Assembly: GCA_033875315.1 (NCBI GenBank) | Contig: JANRJG010000015.1 | Span: 62,001-126,000 of the forward strand | Reading direction: 5' to 3' | Source of the DNA: Candidatus Methylacidiphilales bacterium | GTDB taxonomy: Bacteria; Verrucomicrobiota; Verrucomicrobiia; Methylacidiphilales; CAZTYG01 | Length of the DNA stretch: 64,000 nt | Part shown: positions 1 to 15,079 of the stretch, piece after piece | How positions within the stretch are numbered: the stretch's first letter is position 1 | Layout of the letters: the number at the start of each line of letters is the position of its first letter | Translations under genes and position numbers: made by a program | The notes under the pieces: generated by a model | What the model was told of the DNA's origin: nothing | Seen by the model: the letters and a program-made list of their open reading frames with translations, nothing else | The model's database searches: none

Positions 1-944
1 CGCTGGTATTCCAGCATGAGTTGGCTGCGGGGAATGGAGCCGCCGAATTCCACGCCGTCGGGAAGTGGATGGGTCAACCGGCGCGGCAGTTCAACGCGTC
101 CGAAAATCCGCAAGCAGGCGTGTCGGTGGAAACCGCCCTTGCGCCAGGCTTCCAGGAGGTAGTGGGCGCCCTTCCTCATGCCAAAGGTGCCGGCCCACAG
201 AATGACCATGGGTCCAAGGCCCCGCGTTCCGCCCGATACCGCCACCCCTTCTTCGACCGTCTCCGGGGCCCCGTAGGGAATAACGATCATCTTGGAGGTG
301 TCGAGCCCGGCGGCGGCATAGGAATCCCGGCTGAAGCGCGAGGCGCAGACGCGGACGTCGGCCGCGGCCCATTCGGCGCGGCGGCGGGCGGTCCGCCGGT
401 CTTCACGTTCGGCGGTATAAGCATGATAGGCCGTGGCCAATTCGGGAAGGACCTGCATTTCGCGTTCCAGAATGGACTGGACAAATAGGGGCTCGGGGGC
501 GGGCAGCTCGTAAACGCAGGGAATACCGAGGGAGCGGGCCCGAGTGAGGGTCGCCAACGAGCTGTATTCAAAGCCATAGACCGCGCGCAGTCCCTGGGGA
601 AGACCGGAAGCGACCAAACGGTCGAATCGGGTTTCGGACCATTCCCAAACCCGGTCGGTCAGACGTCCGTCGCGGTCGATCAGACCGGAAGCCAAACGCA
701 GGAGCTCGCCGGTGGGGTGGGTTTCGATGTGGCTGAAGGGAATGCCGCCGTCGTTGCGGCGCTTCCAGCGGGCCTCGAGCGGATAACTGGCCAGCTTGGC
801 CAGCCGGAAGAGGGCTCTTTGTCCGTGGGAGTTTGGACGGTGGACGAGGGTGGTGACCAAGCGGTCAAGAAGTCCGGCCTCGTGGAAAGCCAAGGCGGCT
901 TGTTGGACGAAGGGGGCGACGGAAGGGTGGAAGACGCGGATCAT
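1..944 (-). CDS. Glycosyltransferase family 4 (GT-B), C-terminus cut by window edge
   Basis: Reading the minus strand from an ATG at 944 gives an open frame of about 314 codons to the window edge. It begins MIRVFHPSVAPFVQQAALAF, a typical N-terminal Rossmann domain of a GT-B glycosyltransferase. Near residue 240 comes the start of the second domain (ILWAGTFGMRKGAHYLLEAW, the nucleotide-sugar-binding half). The usual E-x7-E motif would lie beyond the edge, so the retaining GT4 assignment rests on fold-like pattern only. The start overlaps the stop of the upstream glycosyltransferase as ATGA (941-944), so it is translationally coupled in the polysaccharide operon. The sugar donor and acceptor cannot be told. 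Confidence 0.8.
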   Translation of the reverse strand, partial: MIRVFHPSVAPFVQQAALAFHEAGLLDRLVTTLVHRPNSHGQRALFRLAKLASYPLEARWKRRNDGGIPFSHIETHPTGELLRLASGLIDRDGRLTDRVWEWSETRFDRLVASGLPQGLRAVYGFEYSSLATLTRARSLGIPCVYELPAPEPLFVQSILEREMQVLPELATAYHAYTAEREDRRTARRRAEWAAADVRVCASRFSRDSYAAAGLDTSKMIVIPYGAPETVEEGVAVSGGTRGLGPMVILWAGTFGMRKGAHYLLEAWRKGGFHRHACLRIFGRVELPRRLTHPLPDGVEFGGSIPRSQLMLEYQ

Positions 945-1972
945 AGGCGGGAGGATTCGGCAAATCGGGCGGCGGTGTGGTGGTCCAGGAAATCCCACCA
1001 ATCGCGGTGGGCCGATGGCGAGCGGACCAGCCGCCAGAGGAGCCGGGGCCTGAGGAACAGCGTGACCAGCAGCCGGGCCAGACGCAAGGGGGATTCCCGG
1101 TGCCAGAAGAAAAAGGCGGCCGGGGTATAAAGGGCGGCCAAAAGAAGCGGGGCGGTGCATGGGGGCTTTTGGGAAACAGCCCACGCCCAAAGGTGCTCCA
1201 ACGTTTCCGTTTGTCTTGGAAATCGCTTCACGGATTGCCGCACGAACGTGGCGGCGAGCATGGCCTGCATTTCGGCCCATTCAGCACGATCAAACGAACG
1301 CGCGGTGGTGCGTGTGAGGGAAAAATGCGCTTTGGGCGTATTCACCAACACCAAGGGATGGGGGAACATGCGCTCGCGGAACACTTCCACCACAGCGATG
1401 GGCACATCGGGTGTCCTCCAGTCATCGCCCGGGCGCGAGCGGAGGAGGAGGGCGCTCTGGGAATGGAGAGCGCCGATGGACTGGAGTGGTCGGCCCCACG
1501 ACATCAGGGAGTGGGGCCCGCTGCCGTCTTCGATGGGCCAAGTGGTGGTGCCGGTGTCGGTGAACGCACCCTCTACCTCTTCCTTCCAGATCCGCATGTT
1601 GGCCCAGAAGACGACGACCTCCGGATGCGCCTCTGCGGCATCAAGCATGCTGCGAAGGAAGTCGGGTTCCCACCAGTTGTCATCCTCCAACATGGAATAA
1701 AAGGGAGCGGGGGAGCCTTGGAAAAAAAGGTTGAAGGTGGCCGTGCCTCCGAGATTCCTTGGGTGGACGTCCATCCGGATTCGGGGATCACCAAGCTCGC
1801 TGACAATGCGGGAAGGGAGTGGATCGCTGGGATCGTCATTGTGCACTTCGGCCGCCCATTGGGTGAAGGTTTGGGCCCGGAGTGAATCGAGTGCCCGTTG
1901 CAGAAGATGGGGTCTGCGGAAGGTGGGCACATAGACTTGGACGAGGGGTGTGGTTGTGTGGGAGGGCGGCAT
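941..1972 (-). CDS. Glycosyltransferase family 2
   Basis: This 343-residue protein starts with the GT-A pattern VQVYVPTFRRPHLLQRALDS. It carries NDD at 45-47 and EDDNWW at 96-101, equivalent to the metal-binding DxD of family 2 transferases. It probably transfers one sugar from a nucleotide donor to the growing lipid-linked glycan at the inner membrane. The C-terminal third (residues about 255-315) has hydrophobic stretches that may attach it to the membrane. It ends in an ATGA overlap with the next glycosyltransferase and follows the acyltransferase gene by 9 bases. It resembles the 10061-11140 product, which has a similar HDDDWW site. Confidence 0.85.
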   Translation of the reverse strand: MPPSHTTTPLVQVYVPTFRRPHLLQRALDSLRAQTFTQWAAEVHNDDPSDPLPSRIVSELGDPRIRMDVHPRNLGGTATFNLFFQGSPAPFYSMLEDDNWWEPDFLRSMLDAAEAHPEVVVFWANMRIWKEEVEGAFTDTGTTTWPIEDGSGPHSLMSWGRPLQSIGALHSQSALLLRSRPGDDWRTPDVPIAVVEVFRERMFPHPLVLVNTPKAHFSLTRTTARSFDRAEWAEMQAMLAATFVRQSVKRFPRQTETLEHLWAWAVSQKPPCTAPLLLAALYTPAAFFFWHRESPLRLARLLVTLFLRPRLLWRLVRSPSAHRDWWDFLDHHTAARFAESSRL

Positions 1973-1981
1973 GCGGGGGCA

Positions 1982-3043
1982 TCAATCGGAGTGGATTTGC
2001 CTGGGAGTTTTGCCCTGCAAACGGTGACGGAAGTTTTCCAGTGGCCTTTCCACCAGCCGGAAGAAGCACCAACCGGCGGCGAGGCCCAGCAGGACATGCC
2101 CCAACCAGAAGAAAAGGTAAGAAGGGCTGTTTGTGGAAATGTAGCGGTGGGCCAGATTGTGAGCCGGACTCATGACCGGGAGGTGGACGAGGTAGACCGA
2201 ATAGGAAATCGTTCCAAGGGCGGCCAGCAAGCGGGGAGGGCGGGGCCAGGATGTGCCGAAGCGGACCACCAGGACCATCAGCAGGGCGCTGGCCGCCGCC
2301 ACTGCATGGGCCGCCTGGCCGAAGAAGAGAGAAAATAGAAGCAGTCCGAATGGATAGGCAAGTGCGGCCTGGCGCAGCCGGCATGCCAGATGGGATTGCA
2401 GGGCCAGACGTGCGGCACAACCGGCGGCGAATTGGGGCCAAAGATCCAGCAGGGCCGTGCTTCCCCGTGGCAGTAGATGGGCCACAAGCGTGATCGCGGC
2501 CAGATAAAGGATTCTCGAGGCGGCGCCTGCAAAGAGAGGTAGAAGAGCGGCAGCGGCAATCAGGTAAAAGCCGATTTCGTAGCACAGGCTCCAATTGACC
2601 AGGATCGGGGATTGGATTCCGATCCAATGTCCCGTCAACAACAGGTCGGCCAGGATGTCCGGGGCCCGGGCGGGCCAGTTTGCCGGAATACCGCGCCCGT
2701 TGAACGGCGCGGCCAGGCAGGCCAGAACCACGGCGAAAACCCAGGCGACCCAGTAGGCCGGGAAAATGCGCAGTGCACGGTCGAGGCAGAAGGCCGCGGC
2801 CTGCCGGTCATCGCCGGTGCGTCGCTCCACGATTCCGGTGATCAGAAAACCGGAAAGGGCGAAAAATGCGGCCACGCCCAGCCAGCCACGGTCGAAGAGC
2901 CCGGCCATGAAGACGAGGATCGGGTGGCTGCTGTCCTCAACCAGAAGATGGGAATGATGCAGGACCACGGCCAGACAGGCCGCCCCACGCAGGGCGTTCA
3001 GCCAGGGCGAGTATGCGTCCGGATTCAACGGGGGGCGGGGCAT
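1982..3043 (-). CDS. Acyltransferase-3 family membrane protein (OafA/YrhL-like O-acetylase)
   Basis: The protein has 353 residues with about ten hydrophobic segments. Its N-terminal block (NALRGAACLAVVLHHSH) carries the RG and HH features of acyltransferase-3 proteins, and GVAAFFALSGFLIT is the family's second signature. These proteins move an acyl group, usually acetyl, from the cytoplasm onto a sugar of a surface polysaccharide. The open frame extends upstream to 3769, but the ATG at 3043 fits the family N-terminus and overlaps the upstream GT2 gene by only 19 bases. The position in a glycosyltransferase operon supports O-acylation of the glycan made here. Confidence 0.88.
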   Translation of the reverse strand: MPRPPLNPDAYSPWLNALRGAACLAVVLHHSHLLVEDSSHPILVFMAGLFDRGWLGVAAFFALSGFLITGIVERRTGDDRQAAAFCLDRALRIFPAYWVAWVFAVVLACLAAPFNGRGIPANWPARAPDILADLLLTGHWIGIQSPILVNWSLCYEIGFYLIAAAALLPLFAGAASRILYLAAITLVAHLLPRGSTALLDLWPQFAAGCAARLALQSHLACRLRQAALAYPFGLLLFSLFFGQAAHAVAAASALLMVLVVRFGTSWPRPPRLLAALGTISYSVYLVHLPVMSPAHNLAHRYISTNSPSYLFFWLGHVLLGLAAGWCFFRLVERPLENFRHRLQGKTPRQIHSD

Positions 3044-4017
3044 GGCAGTGGAGGCGCGATCTGGGAGCGCCCGCCGTTCGATAACAGGTGGCGGATGCGT
3101 TTGGCGGCACGCCAACCCACCAGCCGGGAAAGTGCTTGGAAGGTGGGGCCTGCAGGAAAGGGGCGCAGGCTGCCCCCGAGTGCACGGCTCGCGTCCTCGG
3201 CACGGCGTGAAAGACCGGGGGCCCCGGGATAAAGTTCGAAGGCAAGCCATTTCCATCCCGCGGCCATGATGGGACGGGCGGTGTCGGAACCCGCGGTTTT
3301 TTCCAAGTTTTGAAAAATCAAGGAGGTGGCATCGAAGAGGGATTGAAGGGATCGTGCATCCGAGCGGCTGCTCAGGGAGCCCGACGGCAGGCTGCGATAG
3401 TAGATGCGGGCGCCCGGGCAGAAATAGATGCGGCCCGCGGCCAGCATCACGCGGGCAAAATATTCGCCATCGTCGTTCAGCGTGATGTTTTCGTTCCAGC
3501 TTCCTGCTTCGTCCAAGAGGGTCCGGTGGCTCAACCAGGCGCCCGGTTGCATCATCCATCCCCCATGGAAAAGAAGGGACAGGAATTCTACGGGATCGAG
3601 GTCTTTCCAGTTGGGCTGGGGTCGGAACCGGGCTTCGTTCGGGTTGGTTAGGAAGCGGTCCCATTCCCCGGACATCAAGCGGATGTTGGGTTGGCCGGCG
3701 GCGAGGCGGACCTGGCGTTCGATTTTGTCGGGCGCGAGAAGGTCGTCGGCATCGAGGAACTGGATCCACTGCCCCTTGGCGGCATGGAGGGCGGTGTTGC
3801 GGGCAGCGGCGGCATTGCGCGAGGGTCCTTCGATCAGCCTGAGTCCGCGGGCAAGATAGGCCCGCGCGATGGCGAGACTGCCGTCGGTGGAACCATCATC
3901 GACAAGGATGATTTCTTTTTCCGGCCAGGTTTGGGCGAAGGCGGAGTCCAGGCAGGCGCGCAACCATGGGGCGGCATTGCGGCAGGGGATGAGGATGGAA
4001 ACGAGAGGGGAGTTCAC
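3025..4017 (-). CDS. Glycosyltransferase family 2
   Basis: This is a classic inverting GT-A enzyme. From the GTG at 4017 it reads VNSPLVSILIPCRNAAPWLR, with DDGS at 40-43 (nucleotide binding) and DADD at 89-92 (metal site). The GTG was chosen because it forms a GTGA overlap with the upstream stop at 4014-4016; an upstream ATG at 4053 is possible but would add an atypical leader of 12 residues. The protein has about 330 residues and no clear membrane segment. It probably adds one sugar residue to the lipid-linked glycan. Confidence 0.88.
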   Translation of the reverse strand: MNSPLVSILIPCRNAAPWLRACLDSAFAQTWPEKEIILVDDGSTDGSLAIARAYLARGLRLIEGPSRNAAAARNTALHAAKGQWIQFLDADDLLAPDKIERQVRLAAGQPNIRLMSGEWDRFLTNPNEARFRPQPNWKDLDPVEFLSLLFHGGWMMQPGAWLSHRTLLDEAGSWNENITLNDDGEYFARVMLAAGRIYFCPGARIYYRSLPSGSLSSRSDARSLQSLFDATSLIFQNLEKTAGSDTARPIMAAGWKWLAFELYPGAPGLSRRAEDASRALGGSLRPFPAGPTFQALSRLVGWRAAKRIRHLLSNGGRSQIAPPLPCPAPR

Positions 4018-4946
4018 GCCAGGAGACTCTGCCAGCTGTGCCGGAAATACCATTTCTTGGAACTAGCCACGTAATGGTGCAGGACGGCGCGGCGTTCGAT
4101 GGCTTCAGGCAGGACGGGTAGGGTCACATAGTCATCCGCCGGCAGGATGGTCCTTGCGCCAGCACGTGCCACGAGGGTGGCGATCAGGGCCTGCTCCAGA
4201 TAGTAGTGAGTGCCGTGGCGGGTGATCCAATCGCGGCACATCGCTTCCAGCCAATCCCAGTCGAGGATGCTTCCGTCCAAACCGGTCAGGCCGACGTTGA
4301 CCAGCGGGGGCACCTTGCAGCCGGCCCATTCCTGCAGGGTTTGATCCGGGTATCCGTAGGAGGTTTCGTGATCGACAGCGTGCAGGGGAGTCGCGGGCTG
4401 GTCGAGCCACTCCAGAAGCAAGCCGGGATTGCGGAAAAACAACATGTCCGAGTCGAGGACCAGGTTCCAACCGACGTGGGCCAGATGCGGGTCGATTAGT
4501 TTGCGGATGTTGGGATAGGTGTGCCACTGCCTGTGCAGGAAGGGGTAACGTTCCCGGGGAAGTTCGGCCTCCAGCCGTGAGAGGGCTTCCGTTCGCCCGA
4601 TCACCCGGACTTCTTCGAAGTGGTCATGGAACAATTCGGTCCGTCCGGGCTGCAGGGAGCCGTCATCGATTAAGCAGATGCGCCACCGGGAGCTGGTGGC
4701 CCTGCGGAGCGACCAGGCGCAGAAGAGGGTGAGGTGCCAAAAACGTTGGCCGGTGAGAAACCATATCGTCCGGAGAGGGGTCTGTGGGTCGGCGGTGATG
4801 ATGGGCAGATGAAGGGCGGCCTTCCGCATGGCCGCCTCCCCCCGGTGCTCAAGCCAGGAGGGGTAGAATCCACCCCGTGCCCGGCAGCGGGCCAGAAAGG
4901 ACCGGGGCCGGTGCCATATGTGATAAAGCATCCGTCCGGGGGTCAT
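4014..4946 (-). CDS. Putative GT-A type glycosyltransferase
   Basis: The protein has 310 residues from the ATG at 4946, which overlaps the upstream stop (ATGA at 4943-4946). A longer frame from 4973 exists but would intrude further into the upstream gene. The core contains CLIDDGS (91-97) and LVLDSDMLFF (163-172), the latter a DxD metal site of nucleotide-diphospho-sugar transferases. A conserved-looking block near residue 215 (GYPDQTLQEW) and a late YLEQALIATL match the acceptor side of such enzymes. The exact family is not recognised; GT8-like or DUF-type GT-A are the nearest. It sits directly after a second DxD-type transferase and may act with it. Confidence 0.7.
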   Translation of the reverse strand: MTPGRMLYHIWHRPRSFLARCRARGGFYPSWLEHRGEAAMRKAALHLPIITADPQTPLRTIWFLTGQRFWHLTLFCAWSLRRATSSRWRICLIDDGSLQPGRTELFHDHFEEVRVIGRTEALSRLEAELPRERYPFLHRQWHTYPNIRKLIDPHLAHVGWNLVLDSDMLFFRNPGLLLEWLDQPATPLHAVDHETSYGYPDQTLQEWAGCKVPPLVNVGLTGLDGSILDWDWLEAMCRDWITRHGTHYYLEQALIATLVARAGARTILPADDYVTLPVLPEAIERRAVLHHYVASSKKWYFRHSWQSLLA

Positions 4947-5932
4947 GCTTCGGGGGGAGCGCCGGCCTTCCATTTTGGATCATTTTCCGGAGTGGATTCG
5001 GTGAAACGGTTGCGCAGGAACAGGCGGCTGATCCAATGTTGTTGGCGCAAATGATTGCGTAGGGCGATGGGAAACAATGCACGACCGGCGTGACGCAGGA
5101 GTTGCAGCCCGGCCATGAGCCAGGCCCGGGTCAATTCTTCCGGTTGGGAGTCGTCCATCAGAACGGCATCCAAACGGGGGATGTAGACGCGATTGCCCAG
5201 CTGCCGGTTGAGGCGGACGGTCAGTTGGTCAAGATGGGCTTCGCCCCGGCCGTGGAGAATGCGCACATTGGCACAGGCAAAATCCAGGTGGTGCGGGGTG
5301 AAGTTGTATTCGGGGCCCAGCACGGCGACGGACAGTCCTGATTCCCAAACCGTTTGGCGGAGGCTCTTTTGGTCGCTGGCATTCGAGTAGTGGTAATAGC
5401 CATCCCGATTGAGGGCAAAATAGGCATCAAACCGTTCGATCCAACGAGCGAAGAATCCATGAAGACGGGGCGAGTGCTGGAAGCCCAAGACCCCGCCATT
5501 GAACTCGGGGAAAGCATCCGGAATACCTGGTAATGGACAGTCATGGCCCTCAAAAAGTTGATGGCCCGCGAAATCAAATCTTTTGAGCAAAGTAAAAACA
5601 TCTTCCAGACCTGCCAGCACGCGAGTGTCGGCGTCGAGGTAAAGAAAATGTTGGTAGGGGCAGAGGCCCATGAGGATCTTGTCCCGGAAGCCGAAATGGG
5701 GATGGGTGACGGGAACAAGGTCATCCCAAAAGGGATCGGGGTCGCTTTCCGCACAGTCGGAAACAAGACAAATAGCCAACCCGGGGTTGTGGAGTCGCAC
5801 ATGAGCGGCGGCGGTCCGGGCCTCATCAAGGAACCGACGACTGGTGGCGACGTAAACAACGCCTTGGCGGTCTGGCAGCGCGACGGTTGGCCAGGCCGGA
5901 TGGCGGGCATCGATGGAGGGATGGATGGTCAT
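4943..5932 (-). CDS. Putative nucleotide-diphospho-sugar transferase (GT-A)
   Basis: This 329-residue protein has LYLDADTRVL (98-107) with the DxD signature at 100-102, and later EFNGGVLGFQHS, the acceptor-side NGG block seen in GT8-like and related transferases. The N-terminal VVYVATSRRFLDEA is a typical first strand and helix. Both ends are ATGA overlaps (4943-4946 and 5929-5932), which places it firmly in the operon between a methyltransferase and another putative transferase. Substrate is unknown. Confidence 0.72.
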   Translation of the reverse strand: MTIHPSIDARHPAWPTVALPDRQGVVYVATSRRFLDEARTAAAHVRLHNPGLAICLVSDCAESDPDPFWDDLVPVTHPHFGFRDKILMGLCPYQHFLYLDADTRVLAGLEDVFTLLKRFDFAGHQLFEGHDCPLPGIPDAFPEFNGGVLGFQHSPRLHGFFARWIERFDAYFALNRDGYYHYSNASDQKSLRQTVWESGLSVAVLGPEYNFTPHHLDFACANVRILHGRGEAHLDQLTVRLNRQLGNRVYIPRLDAVLMDDSQPEELTRAWLMAGLQLLRHAGRALFPIALRNHLRQQHWISRLFLRNRFTESTPENDPKWKAGAPPEA

Positions 5933-6672
5933 GGGGAGCGGGGACGGAGAACGGCCACCCCATGTCCGCGTTCACTGGCGAAAACGTGGATGTCGAAACG
6001 GTCCTTCAATTCCACCAAAGAACGACGGACCCCGGGAGCGCTGACCGCATCGTGAAGCACCAGGAAGCCGCCTGGGGCCAGGCGGGGGGCGTAGGCCAGG
6101 ATTTCATCACGGGTGTCTGGATAGGCATGGGATGTGTCGAGAAAGATCAATTGGGCCTGCGGCGGAAGCTGCTCCATCACCGAAGGATCGAGAGAAGTTC
6201 CCTCGACCCAGGTGGCCCAGCCTTCGAGTTGATGGCGTTTGAGATTGGCGTGGGCGGCATCGAGATACCTGTGGCAGGGGTCCAAGGCCCATACCTTTCC
6301 GCCAGTCTGTTGTATGGCCAGGGCCAGATGCGCGGTGGACCAGCCGGTGAAGCAGCCGAGTTCGATGATGGTCTGCGCAGGAATGGAAAGTGCCAATTGA
6401 TAAAGAAATCGGGAGACGGAAGGTTCGGAATGGAAGTGACCCGGTGCTCCTTGCGGGGTGAACGCCTCTGGATCGCCCAGATCCACGGGCATCCTTTGTT
6501 TGGTCTGCGTCTTCGTGAGCATTCCGGCCAGATCGAGCGGTCCGGTGTTTCCAATGACGTCCTGGTAATCCATGCCGTATTCGCGGGCCAAGGCGGTCAC
6601 ATCGTTCCAGATGAAGCGACGGGTCAGGGCGATACGCAGGAGATGAAGGCGGGCGGAAATGTTGGATGACAT
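5929..6672 (-). CDS. Class I SAM-dependent methyltransferase
   Basis: From the ATG at 6672 this is 247 residues. The SAM-binding motif I is TIIELGCFTGWSTAHLA (101-117), followed by VWALDPCHRY (motif II acidic residue) and LIFLDTSHAYPDT, then APGGFLVLHDAV. This is the pattern of the methyltransferase-24/CmcI-like group, which includes sugar and hydroxyl O-methyltransferases. An alternative ATG at 6711 would overlap the upstream gene by 34 bases; the 6672 start leaves a 5-base gap. With the neighbouring TylF-like enzyme it suggests that the glycan carries methyl groups. Confidence 0.82.
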   Translation of the reverse strand: MSSNISARLHLLRIALTRRFIWNDVTALAREYGMDYQDVIGNTGPLDLAGMLTKTQTKQRMPVDLGDPEAFTPQGAPGHFHSEPSVSRFLYQLALSIPAQTIIELGCFTGWSTAHLALAIQQTGGKVWALDPCHRYLDAAHANLKRHQLEGWATWVEGTSLDPSVMEQLPPQAQLIFLDTSHAYPDTRDEILAYAPRLAPGGFLVLHDAVSAPGVRRSLVELKDRFDIHVFASERGHGVAVLRPRSP

Positions 6673-6677
6673 GCTGT

Positions 6678-7451
6678 TTAGTTGGAGTTGGACGCGGGCT
6701 TGACCAGACATCTTGCGGTATAGTCGATTCGGTGAAGGTAGGGAGCCGCGGGCAGCGAGAAAAAAAACTCATCGGCCGCGCGTCGCGCCCCCTGCCAGTG
6801 TCCGTAATCATCCAAAATCAGGATGCCCCCGGGTGACAGCAACGGGTAAAGGTGTTCCAGTTCGTGACGGGTCGACTCATACCAATCGGTATCCAAGCGC
6901 AGCAGGGCGATGGATTGAGGCAGCCGGGCCGGAATGGTTTTCTCCACCGGGCCGACGATGTAGTGGGTTTGCTCCCCGGGATAACCGGTGGAGTGGAGAT
7001 TCTGTCGGACATCGTCGAGACCGGCCACACAGGCAACGGCTTCGCTGTGGAGCGGATCTCCAAGAAGCGTGCTGGCCGAGCGACCGGCCAGATCAAGATC
7101 CTTGTCGGTGGGAGCGGTCATTCCCGTGTAAGTGTCGTAAAGCCAGAGTGAGCGCGAGTCATCCTGGAGTCGGAGCAATTGGAGGGCGGCGGCCATCATG
7201 CTGCCTCCGCGCCAGACCCCGCATTCCACGATGTCTCCCGGAATGGCTTGTTCCACGCAGTGGGCGACTGCATTGAGAACCGAGGCCAAACGGGCCGGAC
7301 CCGTATAGGTGAAGGGCGATACCCTGCGGATGATTTCCCGTTCCTCGGGCAAAAGGTCTGGCACCTCTGCGGCCGGGTCATGCGGCCGGTAACGGCGGAT
7401 CTGCCAACCAGCATGGTTGAGGAGGCTATGGATGCGGTCGTACCATTTCAT
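6678..7451 (-). CDS. TylF/MycF-like sugar O-methyltransferase
   Basis: The protein has 257 residues and matches the macrocin-O-methyltransferase family: a SAM site IVECGVWRGGSMMAAA (74-89), LWLYDTYTGMTAPT, LLRLDTDWYEST with the metal-binding Asp residues, and ILILDDYGHWQGAR near the C-terminus. Family members methylate a sugar hydroxyl using Mg2+. The open frame runs upstream to 7877, but the ATG at 7451 forms an ATGA overlap with the upstream GT2 stop and fits the family length. Methylation of a terminal sugar is a common chain-termination signal read by Wzt C-terminal domains such as the one encoded at 11163-12401. Confidence 0.88.
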   Translation of the reverse strand: MKWYDRIHSLLNHAGWQIRRYRPHDPAAEVPDLLPEEREIIRRVSPFTYTGPARLASVLNAVAHCVEQAIPGDIVECGVWRGGSMMAAALQLLRLQDDSRSLWLYDTYTGMTAPTDKDLDLAGRSASTLLGDPLHSEAVACVAGLDDVRQNLHSTGYPGEQTHYIVGPVEKTIPARLPQSIALLRLDTDWYESTRHELEHLYPLLSPGGILILDDYGHWQGARRAADEFFFSLPAAPYLHRIDYTARCLVKPASNSN

Positions 7452-8344
7452 AGGGGGATGCGCCCGGCGAAGTGACCGCAGGCTCCATGCCAAGAAATCC
7501 GGGCGGAGGGTCCCTCCCAGGCACGGCAGCTGAAGTAGGCCTTCCATTGACGCAGATGGAGGGTCCAGCGCGGGATGGGAAACCAGGGGTTGCAACCGTG
7601 TTTGGTCAGAACGCGCATCCAGGAAGCCTGCATGGATTCGTGGAGCCGGGCAAGATAGGCCGGTTCGAGACGCGAGGCCGGAATCAGGTGGGTCAGCCGG
7701 AGTCCCGGGGAGTAGGCCACTTCCCAGCCGGATTTGAGGACGTGAAGAACAATGTCGTTGTCCCCGCCCGAGGCCAGGCTCTTGCCACAGCGATCTGTAA
7801 GGGAAGTATCGCTGTCGTTGAGCCAGGCCCCGAGGGCAGAGCGGCGGAGGACCATGCCCGCCCCGATGGGGGCGCAAGCCGGATATTCTCCGTTCCAGGT
7901 CGCGGTCATGAATGCATTACCCAGATCGCGCAGGGCCAACAGCCCGTGGTGAGGGATGGACCAGTCCGGCGGGGGGGCTTCGAATTCGGGAAGAGATGCT
8001 CCACCAGCGGCACCGACCTGGGGATTGGTGCGCATGAGATCAAGTGCGCTTTCGAGGTAGTCCGGTGCCAGGAGGTTGTCATCGTCGACAAAAACGAGGA
8101 ACTCGGCGGAGCTGGCCCGCACGCCGGTGCGACGGGCGTGGGAGAGGCCCATTCGGGATTCGGCGATGATGCGCGCTCCTGGGAATCGGGAGAGATCCAC
8201 GGCCAGGGGAGGCTGGGAGGCATTGTCAATGATCAGCAACTGCCATTGGTCGATTGGCAGGGATTGAGAGGCCAGCCCCTCGAGTGTGCGGGCCAGGCGT
8301 TCCCGGTGGGGTTGGTGGGCGGGGAGGATGACGGAAACATTCAT
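7448..8344 (-). CDS. Glycosyltransferase family 2
   Basis: This 298-residue GT-A enzyme begins MNVSVILPAHQPHRERLART. It has IIDNAS at 38-43, VFVDDDNLL with the metal-binding DDD at 87-89, and GGDNDIVL near residue 203, matching the (E/D)D acceptor-activating region of family 2. The N-terminal strand, helix and DDD spacing are canonical. ATGA overlaps join it to the acetyltransferase gene upstream and the TylF-like gene downstream. Confidence 0.87.
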   Translation of the reverse strand: MNVSVILPAHQPHRERLARTLEGLASQSLPIDQWQLLIIDNASQPPLAVDLSRFPGARIIAESRMGLSHARRTGVRASSAEFLVFVDDDNLLAPDYLESALDLMRTNPQVGAAGGASLPEFEAPPPDWSIPHHGLLALRDLGNAFMTATWNGEYPACAPIGAGMVLRRSALGAWLNDSDTSLTDRCGKSLASGGDNDIVLHVLKSGWEVAYSPGLRLTHLIPASRLEPAYLARLHESMQASWMRVLTKHGCNPWFPIPRWTLHLRQWKAYFSCRAWEGPSARISWHGACGHFAGRIPL

Positions 8345-8907
8345 GACCTGTGGCGCAGGATACGCGCCGGGTTGCCCACCGCGATGGCACCCGTCGGCAG
8401 ATCATGGGTGACAACAGTTCCGGCTCCGATGATACAGCCATCTCCGATGGTGACGCCACCGGTGATGATGGCACCGAAGCCGATCCAGACATCGTCTCCG
8501 ATCCGTACCGGGAGAGGTTGGTCGGGCTGGCTGCGGATCAGGGTTCCCATGGGCGGGATGTCGTGGTTGGAAGAAGCAATGCAAACGTGTCCGGCAATGA
8601 GGCAGTCCTTGCCGATATGGACTCCCCCATGGCCGTAGATCACGACATGGGGGCCGAGAAAGGTGTGGGATCCGATGATGATGCTGCCATTCCACGGATG
8701 GAGGATCACGCCTTGGTCAAGGTGGGCAAGGGGTCCGATCTGGAGGGTGCCTCGACGCGCCGGTGCCGGACCTAGGCCGACTTCGCAGCGGGCTCCGATG
8801 AAAGCACCCATACCAACAGAAACGCCAGTTGCCCGCACCAGGGCAATTCTCATGCGGGAAGCGTAGATGGCCGCGTGATGAAGGGTGGATAAGAGGGGGC
8901 GCTTCAA
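8341..8907 (-). CDS. Left-handed beta-helix (hexapeptide) acetyltransferase
   Basis: The protein has 188 residues. After a short N-terminal helix, residues about 30-180 carry repeated [LIV]-G-x-x-x hexapeptides (for example IGPLAHLDQGV, IGSHTFLGPHVVI, IGDDVWIGFGAIITGGVTIG). An SSNHDIPP loop near residue 113 supplies the family's catalytic His. Such enzymes transfer acetyl from acetyl-CoA to a sugar hydroxyl or amino group. The gene is bracketed by ATGA overlaps with a GT4 upstream and a GT2 downstream, so it probably acetylates a sugar of this glycan. Confidence 0.86.
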   Translation of the reverse strand: MKRPLLSTLHHAAIYASRMRIALVRATGVSVGMGAFIGARCEVGLGPAPARRGTLQIGPLAHLDQGVILHPWNGSIIIGSHTFLGPHVVIYGHGGVHIGKDCLIAGHVCIASSNHDIPPMGTLIRSQPDQPLPVRIGDDVWIGFGAIITGGVTIGDGCIIGAGTVVTHDLPTGAIAVGNPARILRHRS

Positions 8908-10064
8908 AGATTTTTCCGGGTGGAATTCTGGGTGGCTTGATCAAATAGAGTCAAAACATCCGAGCAAGGGTGGGGCTTTGTGAGAGTGAGCGCATGTTGG
9001 CGGGCTTCCTGTCCCATGTTTTCCCATTGGTGGCGAGCATCCCAACAAGCTTTAAGCGTCTCGGTCAACGAATTGGCGGAGATATCGCGGCAGACAAAGC
9101 CGCTGATGCGGTCCTTGATCCATTCATCCACGCCGCCCACCGGAGTGGCCAAAACCGGACGTCCGCACAAGAGGGCCTCCATCATGGCCAGGGAACAGCC
9201 TTCAAGACGCGACGGCAGTAGTAAAAGGTGGTGTTCCCGCCAGAGCGCTGCGATATCCGTGGTGTGCCCGCAGAAAGCGATCCGATCGGCCAGCCCGTGC
9301 CCGTGCGCCATTTTTTGTAGAGACAAGGTATCCGGGCCCTGGCCGAAAATATCGAGATGCCATTCCGCTGATTCACCAAGGGCTCCCGCCAAAGCAGGGA
9401 TCAGGAGATCGAGTCCCTTGTCCCGGGATTCGATGCGCGAAACTGTGGCCATGCGGTAGGGGGGGGATGGGGGCCAGGGAAGCCCGGTCAATCCGGTATG
9501 CGAGGTGGGGTTGTATACGACATGGGCACGCGGAATGGAACTCCCGCTCTGCTGTTGGGCCAGCAGTAGATTATGCTTGGAAACAAAAATCGTGGCGGCG
9601 GCAGATTCAAAGCATCCATGGGCAAGGGCTTGGTCCCTGGTATTCAATTCGACGGCTGCATCGTTTGACTGGCAGATGAGAACGTAAGGTAACTGTGTTG
9701 CTTTCAACCAGTCGATCAACAAGGGCTCAACCAGGAAATCGAATGTGCCGCCCTGGCAAAGACAAAGTATGTCTGGGGAGAATCGTTCGAGTGCACTGAA
9801 GATCGCCGGACGGGTGGAGAGAGTTGAGCACCAACGCATGAGGCGTTTTTTTATTCCGCCCCTGACGAGACGTTCGTCCCGACGATGGATGGTGGCGCCC
9901 CGGCCGACGAGATGGAGGATACGTGGATGGGCGGAGGTCAGGGGGGATAAAGCGAGGAAAAGATGGTCCCCACGCTGGGCGGCGGATTCGGCGGTTGTGG
10001 TCCACAGCGAATCCGCCCCGCCCCATGGGTAGGTGAGTATCGTCGAGGCAAAAGCAACCTTCAT
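8904..10064 (-). CDS. Glycosyltransferase family 4
   Basis: The protein has 386 residues with the GT-B layout. The N-terminal domain starts MKVAFASTILTYPWGGADSL, with the glycine-rich acceptor loop. The C-terminal domain contains ATVSRIESRDKGLDLLIPAL and LLPSRLEGCSLAMMEALLCG, the E-x7-E motif of retaining GT4 enzymes. GRPVLATPVGG follows as the donor-binding loop. It is coupled by ATGA overlaps on both sides. Sugar specificity is not readable from the sequence. Confidence 0.9.
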   Translation of the reverse strand: MKVAFASTILTYPWGGADSLWTTTAESAAQRGDHLFLALSPLTSAHPRILHLVGRGATIHRRDERLVRGGIKKRLMRWCSTLSTRPAIFSALERFSPDILCLCQGGTFDFLVEPLLIDWLKATQLPYVLICQSNDAAVELNTRDQALAHGCFESAAATIFVSKHNLLLAQQQSGSSIPRAHVVYNPTSHTGLTGLPWPPSPPYRMATVSRIESRDKGLDLLIPALAGALGESAEWHLDIFGQGPDTLSLQKMAHGHGLADRIAFCGHTTDIAALWREHHLLLLPSRLEGCSLAMMEALLCGRPVLATPVGGVDEWIKDRISGFVCRDISANSLTETLKACWDARHQWENMGQEARQHALTLTKPHPCSDVLTLFDQATQNSTRKNL

Positions 10065-11140
10065 GAAGGTGTTGGCTGGCTTTTTGGGGGGCGCCGGCTG
10101 GGTTTACCCGACTTGGAACGTGCCCGAGCGATCCAGTCTTTAAGGATCGGAGGCAGCAGGCGGCCCAGGTGGTAAAAGAAATTTGGCTTTTTTGGAACAT
10201 AGGGAAGGACAAGCGCCTGGATATCTTTCGGCAGGAGACCACGACCGAGGAGGGGTCCATAACACCACGGCTCTGCCAGCAGGGGCAGAATCTGATGGAT
10301 GGAATGGTCAGGGCAGTTGGTCAGTCGGTCTGCTAACAGCAAAACAAACCCTGATGGATCATCCAGCATGTCCAACAAATGATGGGTTGTTTGAGAGAAG
10401 TTTTGTGATTGTTCCAAGGCATCGTAACGATGAGTGTCCTGGCCGGGATGCAACCTGATGCAGACCGAGGGCGTGGGGGAATACGTCAGATTGCCGACGG
10501 CGGCCAGGCAGACCCCCAGCAAGCGGTCGTTGTCAAAAGGATTGGCCCGCCGCAATGCGGGCATGATCCTGCGTATACTGTCGGTGTGGGCCACAAGCGT
10601 GGAATAGCGGACCGGGGTTCCCCAGAGACTTGCCAGGATCATGTCTGTTTTTGGGAGATTCCAGTCATGCCTCGTGTCCGGGAATCCGGCGCCGAACCAA
10701 AGCATGAGATTAGAGCCACAGCCGAAGGGGGATGACTCCGACCTGGCTTCCAGGTAGCCCGAATAAGTGGAGGATGGACCGCATCCTGTTCCGATGCGGG
10801 CCAGTGCGGATTCGAGGTGATGGGGCATCCACCAGTCGTCATCGTGCAGCATGGCCATGGAGCCGTCCTGTTCGAGGTTGTCCATGAGGTAGAAAAGGTG
10901 TTCCAGCGGGGGCAAGGGCGTCGTGTGCGAGACGAAATCAATGGGAAGTTCCCTCGAGAACTCGCCTGCTACGGAGCGTGTGCGGGCCGGAGTCCGATTT
11001 TCGGAGATGAGGACGCGTCGGATGCGCGGGCGGGCCGACTGCGCGGCAACGGATTGGAGGGCGGTACGGAGAAAATCCGGGCGGTCAGTGGTGGGAATGA
11101 CCACAGTGACATCGGATGAGGGGGCGTCTATCGGGTGCAT
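10061..11140 (-). CDS. Glycosyltransferase family 2
   Basis: This 359-residue protein starts DVTVVIPTTDRPDFLRTALQ and has AMLHDDDWWMP with the metal triad at 100-102. It resembles the transferase at 941-1972 in having an aromatic pair after the acidic site, a pattern of GT2 enzymes in O-antigen clusters. The C-terminus is basic (ARSKSGKPSRRPPK), perhaps for contact with the membrane surface. It overlaps the next gene as ATGA and lies 22 bases after the Wzt gene. Confidence 0.84.
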   Translation of the reverse strand: MHPIDAPSSDVTVVIPTTDRPDFLRTALQSVAAQSARPRIRRVLISENRTPARTRSVAGEFSRELPIDFVSHTTPLPPLEHLFYLMDNLEQDGSMAMLHDDDWWMPHHLESALARIGTGCGPSSTYSGYLEARSESSPFGCGSNLMLWFGAGFPDTRHDWNLPKTDMILASLWGTPVRYSTLVAHTDSIRRIMPALRRANPFDNDRLLGVCLAAVGNLTYSPTPSVCIRLHPGQDTHRYDALEQSQNFSQTTHHLLDMLDDPSGFVLLLADRLTNCPDHSIHQILPLLAEPWCYGPLLGRGLLPKDIQALVLPYVPKKPNFFYHLGRLLPPILKDWIARARSKSGKPSRRPPKSQPTPS

Positions 11141-11162: not shown

Positions 11163-12401
11163 TCAGTCGGTCAGGCGAAGGGATTCAGTCTGCAGATGGG
11201 GGCGGATGCAGCCATTGATCGTGCCGCCGTAGTCGTCTCGCCCGCTGCCAGTCTCATGAACAAAAAAAGAAATGGCATCTGGGATATGAACCTCGATGCG
11301 GGTGGCGTCGCGCACCAACATGATGTTGAAGGTGTAGCGGCCGTCATTCAGGAAGTTGGCCGGCAAATGGTATCGGTGCAGGTATCGTCCGGGCTGATAG
11401 CTGGCGCTCTTGAGGCCGGAACAAAGGACCCAGGTGCCCTGCTTGTCAAACAAGTGGATGCTGGAGGAAAGATGGTTTTCGGCCTGCATGGCCTCGATTT
11501 CGATTTCCAATACCACTTCCCTGTCGATGGGGACATCGACGCATGTCCTGCCTTCACAGACTATTTGCGCAGAGCGTATGGATAAATTGCTGCGGGTGGC
11601 GATGGGGTCGTTTTCCCAGGAAATCCTGCCCCCTGTGGACGCGATGGTTCCGATGCTTTCCGCGATAACCGGGCCTGGCGGGCCCTGCAGGGCCAATTGA
11701 CCGCTTTTCAAGAGCAGCACCCTCGAACACAAATTGGAAACGATGCCCAGATTGTGGCTGACGAAAAGCACGCTGCGTCCCTCGTTTTTGGAGACAGACT
11801 GCATCTTCCCGAGGCATTTTTTCTGGAACTGGGTGTCCCCGACTGCCAGAACCTCGTCGATGATGAGGATCTCGGGCTCGAGGTGGGCGGCGACGGCGAA
11901 GGCCAGGCGCACATACATGCCGCTGGAGTAATGCTTGACCGGCGTATCGAGGAATTTTTCCACTTCGGCGAAAGCCACGATCTCGTCGAATTTATTCCGG
12001 ATTTCCGCCCGGTTCATGCCGAGGATGGCGCCGTTGAGGAAGATGTTTTCCCGCCCGGTCAGCTCCGGGTGGAAGCCGGTGCCGACTTCGAGGAGGGAAG
12101 CCACTCTTCCCCGCAGGCGGACACGTCCGCGGGTGGGTTCGGTGATGCGGGAGAGTATTTTGAGCAGGGTGCTCTTGCCGGCGCCATTTCTTCCGATGAT
12201 CCCGAGGACTTCTCCCTGCCGGACTTCGAAGGAGACGTCGTTGAGGGCTTGGAAAATTTCCGATTTCCGATTTTTGGGTTCTGGTTTGCGGAACAGGCCG
12301 CTGAGGGTTTCGCGCAGGGTTCGATAGGAAGCCTCCCCTCCCTGGTGGGTGAGGATGTAGTCCTTGCCGAGATTTTCGACGGAGATGACGGGGGCACTCA
12401 C
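11163..12401 (-). CDS. wzt: Polysaccharide ABC exporter ATP-binding protein with Wzt-type C-terminal domain
   Basis: The protein has 412 residues. The ATPase half has Walker A GRNGAGKST at 70-78, the ABC signature as YSSGMYVRLAFA (near 165), and Walker B with EILIIDEVLAVGD. Residues about 265-412 form a separate beta-rich domain like the C-terminal domain of Wzt, which in known O-antigen systems recognises the modified non-reducing end of the chain before export. It pairs with the permease gene 107 bases upstream. The presence of this domain and two methyltransferases in the operon suggests a capped glycan, but the cap has not been identified. Confidence 0.9.
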   Translation of the reverse strand: MSAPVISVENLGKDYILTHQGGEASYRTLRETLSGLFRKPEPKNRKSEIFQALNDVSFEVRQGEVLGIIGRNGAGKSTLLKILSRITEPTRGRVRLRGRVASLLEVGTGFHPELTGRENIFLNGAILGMNRAEIRNKFDEIVAFAEVEKFLDTPVKHYSSGMYVRLAFAVAAHLEPEILIIDEVLAVGDTQFQKKCLGKMQSVSKNEGRSVLFVSHNLGIVSNLCSRVLLLKSGQLALQGPPGPVIAESIGTIASTGGRISWENDPIATRSNLSIRSAQIVCEGRTCVDVPIDREVVLEIEIEAMQAENHLSSSIHLFDKQGTWVLCSGLKSASYQPGRYLHRYHLPANFLNDGRYTFNIMLVRDATRIEVHIPDAISFFVHETGSGRDDYGGTINGCIRPHLQTESLRLTD

Positions 12402-12508: not shown

Positions 12509-13366
12509 TCATATCACGTCGGCGAAGGTGCGCTCGGTGGCGCGGAAGACTTTCAGCCCCAAGAGGACGAAAAGCAAAGAGACGACAAGAGCAAGGATCA
12601 CCTCGAAGATGGGGAAGATGGCATGGCCCAGAATGGCCCAACGGAAGCCCTCGATGACACCAACCATGGGATTCAGGGCATATAGAAGGTATAGGGTTTC
12701 GCCCAACTTGGCGCGAACGACATCGTTGCTGAAAGCGACGGGTGAGACATAAAGCCCGAATTGGAGGATGAACGGGATGATGAAGCGGAAGTCCCGGTAG
12801 GTGACATTGAGGGCGGTCAGGAGCAAGCCGGGTCCGAGGGCGGCGAGAGTGGCCAGGAGCATGAGGAGAGGGAGGGCGAGAATCTGCAGCGGGGGAAGGA
12901 AATGGAACCAAATCATGAGGCCGGCCAGCACCGCGAGGGAGATGCAGAAATCGATCAAGCTGACCGCGAGCGCCGCACCGGGGATGATGAGGCGGGGAAA
13001 ATAGACCTTGGAGATGAGGTGGGCACTGCCGACGAGGCTGTTTCCCGAAGAGCCGAGGGCGCTGGAGAACAACTGCCAGGGCAGCAGGCCGGCGAAGACC
13101 ATGAGCGCGTAAGGGGTGTCTCCCTGACTAGGCAGACCGGCCACACGGCCGAAAACCACGGTCATGATGAGCATGGTGAGGACGGGGGGGATGATGGCCC
13201 AGAGCACGCCGAAAACCGTTTGTTTGTAGCGCACGGCAATGTCCCTCCATGCGAGGATGAGGAACAGTTCCCGGTAACGCCAGAGGTCGGCCCAGTAGTG
13301 CAGGGCGCCCCGACTGGGCTCAATGACGACTTCTGTTTTTGCTTCAGACATGCTGGTTTTTTTCAC
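12509..13366 (-). CDS. wzm: Polysaccharide ABC exporter permease (ABC-2 type)
   Basis: The protein has 285 residues with six hydrophobic segments and the ABC-2 permease pattern: an N-terminal amphipathic stretch (HYWADLWRYRELFLILAWRD), then IAVRYKQTVFGVLWAIIPPV and a mid-protein PRLIIPGAALAVSLID. It forms the membrane channel that moves the lipid-linked polysaccharide from the inner to the outer leaflet, energised by the Wzt protein encoded next. Starts at 13366 or 13351 (MSEAK) are both possible. The gap of 107 bases to wzt holds no recognisable feature. Confidence 0.9.
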   Translation of the reverse strand: MKKTSMSEAKTEVVIEPSRGALHYWADLWRYRELFLILAWRDIAVRYKQTVFGVLWAIIPPVLTMLIMTVVFGRVAGLPSQGDTPYALMVFAGLLPWQLFSSALGSSGNSLVGSAHLISKVYFPRLIIPGAALAVSLIDFCISLAVLAGLMIWFHFLPPLQILALPLLMLLATLAALGPGLLLTALNVTYRDFRFIIPFILQFGLYVSPVAFSNDVVRAKLGETLYLLYALNPMVGVIEGFRWAILGHAIFPIFEVILALVVSLLFVLLGLKVFRATERTFADVI

Positions 13367-13432
13367 ACTTCGTGCCGGTCCCTTCGGCAGGTGATTTGGC
13401 CGAAGTTCCAGTAATCCAGCAGGTTGTGCAGA

Positions 13433-13969
13433 CTAGGAGAAGGGCTCGAGCCAATCGGGCTCGATTTCCAAAGCCACGGAACGCTGCAGGATTTCGACGG
13501 ATAAAATCAGTTTGGTGCGTCCGCTCCTGCGCTGGACCACGCCTTCGAGGCCCTTGAGCCGACCGGTGGTGATGCGGGCGCGGCGTCCGACGCCGAGGTA
13601 GGGACAGTCCTCCGTGCCGAGGCCGGATGCGAGCACAAGCCGGATGGCTTCCAACTCGGCTAGCAGGCGGCCCTGGTCGTGGACCTCGATCACCGCGGCC
13701 ACGTGGCCGGAGCCGTAAACTGCATTGCGTTGGAGAAGACTGAAGGCTCCGAAGGTGTAGCCCGCGAAAAGGGGGTGGTGGAAGGCGGTGCGTTTGCCGG
13801 GATAGACCCGTATTCTTTCCCGGAGCGGGAGGTAATGCCCCAATCCCTGTTGGGCCAACCACTGGTCTAGTTTTTTTTCGCAGCGCGGCCTGGTGTGCAG
13901 AACCCACCATTTGCAACGACCGTCGACCGAAGACGGAGGGCGGAAAGAAGGGGGGGACAGCGTGATCAT
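13433..13969 (-). CDS. Specialised NusG paralogue (RfaH/LoaP/UpxY-like antiterminator)
   Basis: The protein has 178 residues. Residues about 20-115 form a NusG N-terminal domain beginning CKWWVLHTRPRCEKKLDQWL. A KOW motif follows at about 125-150 (GRRARITTGRLKGLEGVVQR). Specialised NusG proteins at the head of polysaccharide operons bind RNA polymerase and prevent early termination in long transcripts, so this one probably controls the operon that follows it. Its start overlaps the regulator stop as ATGA (13966-13969). The extension FRPPSSVDGR at residues 9-18 precedes the conserved domain and is encoded by a dispersed repeat (see the repeat at 13922). No target element was found. Confidence 0.85.
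   Translation of the reverse strand: MITLSPPSFRPPSSVDGRCKWWVLHTRPRCEKKLDQWLAQQGLGHYLPLRERIRVYPGKRTAFHHPLFAGYTFGAFSLLQRNAVYGSGHVAAVIEVHDQGRLLAELEAIRLVLASGLGTEDCPYLGVGRRARITTGRLKGLEGVVQRRSGRTKLILSVEILQRSVALEIEPDWLEPFS
13922..13947. repeat. RPPSSV-type dispersed repeat inside the NusG-like gene
   Basis: A short purine-rich segment on the plus strand contains AGACGGAGGGCGGA, read on the minus strand as RPPSSVDG in frame at the start of the NusG-like protein. Near-identical units occur twice in rlhA, at 36186-36219 and 36952-36985. Confidence 0.6.
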
Positions 13970-14550
13970 AGAAGCTTCTCCGCCAGAGGCAGGATCTTGC
14001 GGATGCGGGTCTCGAACTGGTGAAGTTTGGTCAGGCGGCCCTGGATGAATTCGGAGTCTGCCCCCTTGGCACCCCGGGCTGAGACGAGGACTTGCATTTC
14101 CTCCAACTGCCGGGAAGTGGACTCCAGGCGGGGCCTAATGAGGGCACCGAGAAGGTGGCGGAGAACTTGGCGGAAATCAGGATTGGCCTGGTAGTAATCG
14201 CGGCGGTCGCCCTTGACCCAGACCTGTTCGAGCGCCCCCCAGGACTTGAGTTGACGCACGCCCATGCTGGCGTTGCCTTTGCTGATGTGCAGGGCGTCCA
14301 TCAAGTCGTGCAGGGAAAGCGGTCGGGGACTGAGGTAAAGAACCGCGTAAATCTGGCCGAGGGACCGGGGCAGACCGAGCCTTTGGGCCGAGCGGCTGCC
14401 CAAATCGATGAAGCGTTCGCGGATGGCGGTGTCCTGATCGTTCAAAACAAATTGAACGATACCGGCTGGATCGCACTTTGGCAAGTGGGAAGCGGGGGCG
14501 ATCAGGAGAAGGAATGACAATCGTGGGCGGGCGGGCGTAGTATGCGCCAT
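13966..14550 (-). CDS. GbsR/MarR-like winged-helix transcriptional regulator
   Basis: The conserved part begins near FIDLGSRSAQRLGLPRSLGQ and continues with IYAVLYLSPRPLSLHDLMDA and LHISKGNASMGVRQLKSWGA, the helix-turn-helix of GbsR-type regulators. It ends in a helical tail that would dimerise. The ATG at 14550 adds about 35 atypical residues and overlaps the start of the divergent gene at 14549, so the true start may be a TTG at 14445. That start would give about 159 residues and leave roughly 100 bases for divergent promoters. Its stop overlaps the NusG-like start, so the two control proteins are probably made together. The ligand is unknown. Confidence 0.75.
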   Translation of the reverse strand: MAHTTPARPRLSFLLLIAPASHLPKCDPAGIVQFVLNDQDTAIRERFIDLGSRSAQRLGLPRSLGQIYAVLYLSPRPLSLHDLMDALHISKGNASMGVRQLKSWGALEQVWVKGDRRDYYQANPDFRQVLRHLLGALIRPRLESTSRQLEEMQVLVSARGAKGADSEFIQGRLTKLHQFETRIRKILPLAEKLL

Positions 14551-15079
14551 GGACTTGTCGCGATACCAAGCCGCAGATTTCGACCGAGGTGCCCCTGTTT
14601 GGAAAGAAGCCTTGTGGCGGCTTTGCCAGGGATTTTTTTTCCAAGCCCTCTGGCCGGTGCCCTCAAGCTGGCGGGTGGGCTTGCTGCGATGGTTCGGTGC
14701 CCGTATTGGTGCGCGGGCTGTGATCCGCGCCGGGGTCAACATATCGTTCCCTTGGAGGTTGGAGATGGGCGACGACGTTTGGATCGGGGAAGAAGTGATG
14801 ATCCTTTCCCTGGCCCCGGTGCGATTGGGATCGAATGTTTGTCTGTCCCAGCGCTCTTTTCTCTGCACGGGGTGGCACGATCGCCACCGTGAAACCTTCG
14901 ATCTGGTGGTGAAGCCGATCACGATCCATTCTGGATGCTGGGTGGCGGCGGCGGCTTTTGTTGGTCCCGGGGTGGATATGCCCTCCGGAACCGTTTTGGC
15001 GGCCGGAGCGGTCCTGGTGAAGTCGCCGGAAAAACCTGGGATGTATGCCGGCAACCCGGCGCGGGCCATCGGCGTGTGA
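14549..15079 (+). CDS. WcaF-like hexapeptide acetyltransferase
   Basis: The protein has 176 residues and follows the colanic acid acetyltransferase WcaF pattern: an N-terminal LSRYQAADFDRGAPVWKEAL block, then hexapeptide repeats from about residue 55 (IGARAVIRAGVNISFPWRLE, MGDDVWIGEEV). A catalytic-type His lies in the loop GWHDRHRETFD, and PEKPGMYAGNPARAIG closes the fold. It would acetylate a sugar of an exopolysaccharide repeat unit. It heads the plus-strand half of the locus, opposite the regulator gene, and its stop overlaps the following GTG start (GTGA). Confidence 0.88.
   Translation: MDLSRYQAADFDRGAPVWKEALWRLCQGFFFQALWPVPSSWRVGLLRWFGARIGARAVIRAGVNISFPWRLEMGDDVWIGEEVMILSLAPVRLGSNVCLSQRSFLCTGWHDRHRETFDLVVKPITIHSGCWVAAAAFVGPGVDMPSGTVLAAGAVLVKSPEKPGMYAGNPARAIGV

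Follow-up and report, generated by a model that had tools for sequence, protein, structure and literature searches.

The closest described counterparts of the system reported here are RfaH of E. coli, UpxY of Bacteroides and LoaP, all NusG paralogues, together with the winged-helix proteins GbsR/OpcR of Bacillus and MJ223. What is cited on them below comes from those parts of the sources that were available. RfaH occurs in 23 out of 117 phyla, with about 95% in Proteobacteria, and R73 is listed among its DNA-contact residues (PMC7593976). The ops sequence of E. coli is GGCGGTAG (PMC6775461), and this leader sequence is able to form a small hairpin (PMC6775461, PMC7819879). UpxY acts in leaders upstream of upxY (PMC7819879), while LoaP is linked to a leader hairpin of the UNCG type at which, according to the accessible part of PMC12691694, there is no pause. 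The operator of Bacillus GbsR/OpcR is an AT-rich inverted repeat near the start site, and the winged-helix GbsR-type family consists of DNA-binding repressors (PMC7396694). How operon-encoded NusG paralogues find their targets is stated to be unknown in the available part of PMC7593976. The first-pass annotation of the present DNA held that a GbsR/MarR-type regulator with a NusG paralogue is not a described pair, which fits the literature searched, where no description of a GbsR–NusG combination was found; however, PMC7593976 associates one RfaH cluster (CL4) with an HTH regulator, the details of which are not in the available passage. Matches for RfaH, UpxY or NusG plus exopolysaccharide in Verrucomicrobiota were off topic, as judged by listing, and the term Verruco does not occur in PMC7593976 (main text), PMC7819879, PMC12691694 or PMC13015549.

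The window, i.e., the whole stretch of 64,000 nucleotides analysed, belongs to a genome of 3.15 Mb in 42 contigs (95.65% complete). On its minus strand, a gene for a GbsR/MJ223-type winged-helix regulator (13966..14445; model and profile matches) is followed by one for a specialised, RfaH/UpxY-like NusG paralogue with NGN and KOW parts (13433..13969; models, profiles, predicted fold), by wzm, encoding an ABC-2 glycan export permease (12509..13351), by wzt, encoding the glycan export ATPase (11163..12401; model matches), and by 11 further in-line ORFs (941..11140). The latter are mostly glycan genes, including glycosyltransferases, a hexapeptide acetyltransferase, methyltransferases and an acyltransferase, with two lacking a Pfam match. 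The overlap described earlier between regulator and nusG is present: the regulator frame ends at 13966, the NusG ORF starts with ATG at 13969, and both share an ATGA. Of the continuation listed in the first-pass annotation, wzm, wzt and at least 12 more genes with overlapping stops, the two export genes stand, but only 11 in-line ORFs come after wzt; 4-base overlaps occur in several of these, but not for wzm and wzt, which lie 66 and 107 nt from their preceding genes. For wzm, the ATG at 13351 is the preferred start, since the alternative GTG at 13366 is the end of the conserved leader element discussed below (sequence read by eye). A WcaF-type acetyltransferase gene (14549-15079) is oriented divergently to the regulator; roughly 90 bp separate it from the predicted operator, which could serve both directions.

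The regulator scores 28.8 bits against Pfam MarR_2 (cut-off 27), whereas its best NCBIfam model, CudC, reaches 47.9 bits, far under the cut-off of 218. A profile match to MJ223 (1ku9; 4e-33, over profile positions 5-154) indicates whole-domain similarity to the GbsR/MJ223 winged-helix family. Its reading frame is open up to 15552, and the similarity to orthologues starts at a palindrome at 14440-14457. The start is thus probably the TTG at 14445, which remains unproven, rather than the upstream ATG (14550), rejected because the similarity ends at the palindrome. A choline role as for GbsR was rejected, the neighbours being glycan genes, and the operator spacing and the coupling to NusG also differ from the Bacillus and MJ223 systems. 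The best named matches to the regulator are mostly in Verrucomicrobiota metagenome assemblies, and the window genome is placed in this phylum. The same genome encodes a second GbsR-like regulator (L002, G000:C14:132080-132481; 28% identical), just before which lies a different palindrome, TATTTTCA...TGAAAATA.

In a survey of 60 genomes of the same order, a regulator at least 52% identical (52–56%) was found in three (G001, G005 and G029), each time adjoining, in the same order, a NusG of 55–58% identity that no other of the 60 genomes possesses. Five more distant same-order regulators (L008, L009, L010, L013 and L014) also adjoin a NusG, and the pair is present in further assemblies (L059, L060). 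All six close orthologues with a NusG neighbour (window, L037, L038, L039, L059 and L060) show the 4-base overlap. Across the phylum, the regulator was detected at E ≤ 1e-12 in 158 of 387 genomes. From these matches, 129 loci were examined (29 supplied as loci, 100 fetched); the weakest matches, and those beyond the matches listed, are outside this set. Anaeromyxobacter and other distant matches (L065–L070) were excluded, with no NusG match; L071 is a marginal match. NusG lies directly downstream of the regulator in 38 loci and directly upstream in two. Together with the window and the other order-level loci, this amounts to 49 pairs, of which 24 overlap by 4 bases, 22 are spaced within -8 to +6 nt and three are further apart. 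Pairs are distributed over 12 families and lie to either side of a 100/100 branch of the regulator tree (141 rows), which separates groups of 43 rows (six pairs) and 98 rows (42 pairs). The pair label changes seven times on this tree against 40 in shuffles; pairing has therefore been gained or lost repeatedly. Hence, lack of conservation in relatives, which would have refuted the first-pass proposal, is not what is seen, and the genome search it suggested for such pairs near glycan genes finds them repeatedly. Two loci (L164:433-1656 and L182) have the reversed order with NusG first, and a different palindrome lies between the genes, GTTTAG...CTAAAC in the case of L164. In L043 (G002:C71), regulator and NusG stand as a unit of two genes, with no glycan genes immediately after them, which suggests action in trans.

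That most regulators lack an adjacent NusG, and that the regulator of L063, where the pair is absent, overlaps wzm directly by ATGA, would be compatible with regulator and NusG being ordinary operon neighbours without a joint function. We regard this as very improbable, in view of pairing on both sides of a deep split, the reversed gene order in two loci and the co-segregation of element, regulator and NusG types described below.

The predicted operator, GTTCAA-N6-TTGAAC (14440..14457), is exact in the window and lies at the 5' end of the regulator gene, a position reminiscent of the Bacillus GbsR/OpcR operator. A -10-like hexamer TATCGT (14456..14461, minus strand) shares 2 nt with it and is preceded at a distance of 17 nt by a -35-like hexamer TTGCCA (14479..14484, minus strand). 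Close orthologues start with the same palindrome or a one-mismatch version. A version with no more than two mismatches is located at the regulator start or upstream of it for 46 of the 49 pairs, compared to 1.3% of shuffled upstream stretches, and for 58 of 95 non-pair loci (57 of 94 without L064, which ends at a contig edge and is excluded from later counts). In regulator clade A, the start of the -10-like hexamer precedes the operator by 3 nt at 12 of 24 loci (4 nt in the window), with the -35-like hexamer 16–18 nt further upstream; no common promoter-operator spacing was found in clade B, and the promoter fit is weak outside clade A. Ten of the 48 pair leaders and none of the 93 non-pair leaders contain a second operator copy (≤2 mismatches), situated 9–37 nt beyond the stop codon of nusG, as if a second, glycan-gene promoter were under the same control, an inference from position alone. 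A reading of the palindrome as a LexA-type site was rejected, as the spacing of the LexA motif is different. The only other exact copy in the genome (L047:1501-1518; G000:C12:14047-14064) is found 2 bp upstream of the ATG of a gene for a secreted protein with an apparently PEP-CTERM-like C-terminus.

The conservation of this palindrome also bears on the role of the regulator. Instead of repressing initiation, the GbsR-like protein might act on the NusG paralogue itself, as its partner or as an inhibitor, in the way known for UpxZ and UpxY (PMC7593976), and the tight translational coupling of the two genes would suit such a role. Yet the palindrome is kept at regulator promoters without an adjacent NusG, regulator and NusG are often separate, and the family is one of DNA-binding repressors, which makes this alternative unlikely.

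The NusG paralogue of the window is best described by the UpxY model of NCBIfam (68 bits; cut-off 100), ahead of RfaH (TIGR01955, 45.5 bits; cut-off 144.5), LoaP (23.4 bits; cut-off 125) and NusG itself (21.3 bits), and thus passes none of the three specialised cut-offs. Its profile is closest to RfaH among PDB entries, at 70 bits compared to 42–48 for NusG. The predicted structure yields Foldseek matches to NusG and RfaH, but with a pTM of 0.63 it is only roughly comparable; for the KOW part, which in RfaH is alpha-helical and autoinhibited, AF2 predicts strands at low confidence, leaving the fold there uncertain. One other NusG gene in the genome represents the canonical NusG. Like UpxY, the window protein is encoded in a glycan operon, here at its head, although the partner gene is of GbsR type and not upxZ. 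With RfaH it shares the character of a NusG paralogue for long glycan operons, whereas the factor in these loci is often encoded within its own operon, alongside a repressor. Moreover, the RfaH contact residues are not kept in the profile consensus (alignment by eye): R73 is replaced by G and, in some members only, K10 by R.

Between nusG and wzm, the window carries a leader hairpin CTTCGGC...GCCGAAG (13382..13405, minus strand) and, just after it, the element GACCGGCACGAAGTGTG (13364..13380, minus strand), hereafter A-type, with a mini-hairpin CAC-GAA-GTG at 13366-13374. The window element thus comes after nusG, instead of upstream of it as for UpxY. A hairpin is found at the same place in L037, L039, L059 and L060, and GACCGGCACGRAGTGTG occurs there without mismatch in G001 and G005, the contig of G029 stopping before this position. 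No second exact copy of the A-type element exists in the window genome. The A-type pattern was derived from five loci and then scored in further clade A loci; within three mismatches, it is present in 31 of 43 clade A loci (opposite strand: 1 of 43) and in none of 100 clade B loci. In 29 of the 31 elements, the core folds into a mini-hairpin of 3 bp enclosing GRA, in three stem versions, with 98.3% pairing and 7 compensating cells against 1.4. Where a clade A locus has no adjacent downstream NusG, the element lies before the regulator or 63–90 nt after it.

Leaders of pairs more generally show the motif GGGCGGCAGCGTG after nusG; of the 48 leaders with sufficient length for scoring, 32 match GGGCGGYAGCNTG within two mismatches, compared to 2.8% in shuffles. 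The element patterns were drawn up when some of the loci on which they are scored had already been inspected. If three mismatches are allowed, this B-type element is present on the same strand at 59 of the 100 clade B loci, against 3 of 100 for the opposite strand, and at 1 of 43 clade A loci. It sits behind a hairpin whose helix covaries strongly, with 67 compensating-change cells against 24.4 ± 4.0 in shuffles and 85% pairing against 22–49% in slid versions (L101 and L128, which are weak, and L087 and L088, with a longer stem, are omitted from the alignment). A B-type model (R1), built from 30 leaders, was run on 95 sources that lack an adjacent NusG and retrieved 27 rows; all 26 placed rows (the L044 row was left out) are on the strand of the regulator, 19 between regulator and next gene, five upstream of the regulator and two far downstream. 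Strong B-type elements away from a regulator (G181:C249:13605-13649, G141:C47:22539-22584 and G107:C130:18471-18514) are possible further targets in trans, and a weak R1 match (20 bits) occurs in the window at 57202-57256. Neither element was detected at three mismatches in all loci of its clade: it is absent from 12 of the 43 loci in clade A and from 41 of the 100 in clade B, including some pairs (e.g., L073, L098, L104, L106, L125, L126 and L132). In 17 pair loci, no Rfam family other than tRNA (two tRNAs) exceeds its gathering score; JUMPstart RNA has no match there and nothing credible in the window stretch.

The suggested comparison of the leader before wzm with ops- and LoaP-like elements was accordingly positive for an ops-like element behind a hairpin. 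As in E. coli, the core resembles ops, but these leaders mostly carry GGCGGCAG (B-type) or GGSACGRAGTSTG (A-type) with a hairpin in front; as for LoaP, a leader hairpin accompanies a NusG paralogue, but here an ops-like core follows it. Since the window carries the A-type variant, the ops site of RfaH target leaders, which clade B matches with its ops-like B-type element, appears to be met there in a looser sense only, and on recruitment there are no data. Alternatively, the leader element could be an RNA regulator of its own, i.e., an attenuator or a translational control, with NusG recruited without it, e.g., in cis after translation. The upstream helix covaries as an RNA would, and recruitment in cis is a model in print for operon-encoded NusG paralogues (PMC7819879). 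We nevertheless consider this doubtful, as the B-type core is close to E. coli ops (PMC6775461) and the element type tracks the NusG type also in cases where the nusG gene lies at another locus.

Of 40 genomes, most of them with split loci in which NusG is encoded away from the regulator, 37 contain a specialised NusG (95–168 bits, compared to 43–64 for the housekeeping type); the exceptions are G048 (66% complete) and G415, without a match, and G110, with the housekeeping type only. As judged from these loci, the constant part is regulator, element and glycan operon, with NusG adjacent in some loci and elsewhere in the genome in others. A NusG tree of 75 rows, including the canonical one, covers, for the split loci, the NusGs of 25 genomes or copies rather than all those of the survey of 40. 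It places 13 of 14 clade A NusGs, adjacent or not, on one side, where the canonical outgroup and three f12 sequences also fall; the remaining one is a copy on the other side from G399, a genome with both types. The three f12 genomes combine an A-like NusG, encoded elsewhere in the genome, with a clade B regulator and neither element type at their loci (L135, L142 and L144 among them), perhaps representing a third type. Because of this 13/14 split and the f12 and G399 cases, matched sets of element, NusG and regulator types are, on the comparative evidence, a rule with exceptions.

Taken together, we favour a two-stage switch, with a probability of roughly 70%, in which an autorepressor would gate initiation and an RfaH-like factor would load at the element and carry elongation through the operon. 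In the first stage, as inferred from the site position and the family, the GbsR-type protein would bind the palindrome that overlaps its own -10 region and repress its own promoter, on which nusG and the operon also depend. Release would come from a ligand, perhaps a precursor of the glycan. In the second stage, once transcription starts, translation of the coupled nusG would supply the factor, which is inferred to load on RNA polymerase passing the hairpin and the ops-like mini-hairpin sequence after nusG, and would then sustain elongation across wzm, wzt and the glycan genes. The two-step idea of the first-pass annotation, with the regulator at initiation and NusG at elongation, gains support from the operator at the regulator promoter and the ops-like leader element. 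Sequence comparison establishes the conserved pair, the conserved operator, the conserved strand-specific element and its two forms, which track the regulator clade and, less strictly, the NusG clade; binding, ligand, pausing and antitermination, and with them the switch, are only inferred, as there are no binding, expression or mutant data. Against this switch stand the changes at R73 and K10, the loci without an element, the f12 mismatches, the weak promoter fit outside clade A and the uncertain KOW fold.

Beyond the single locus, we lean slightly towards the view that Verrucomicrobiota possess at least two orthogonal RfaH-like loading codes, in which element, NusG and GbsR-type repressor evolve together, as two matched sets (A and B) that are usable with NusG adjacent or elsewhere, so that operon-encoded NusG paralogues would be recruited through ops-like sites as well as in cis. 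The phylum-wide set offers candidate loading sites and two specificities to swap, and the repressor within it would tie initiation to elongation. The recurrence of this toolkit across the phylum may thereby provide a concrete way to test how operon-encoded relatives of NusG find their targets.
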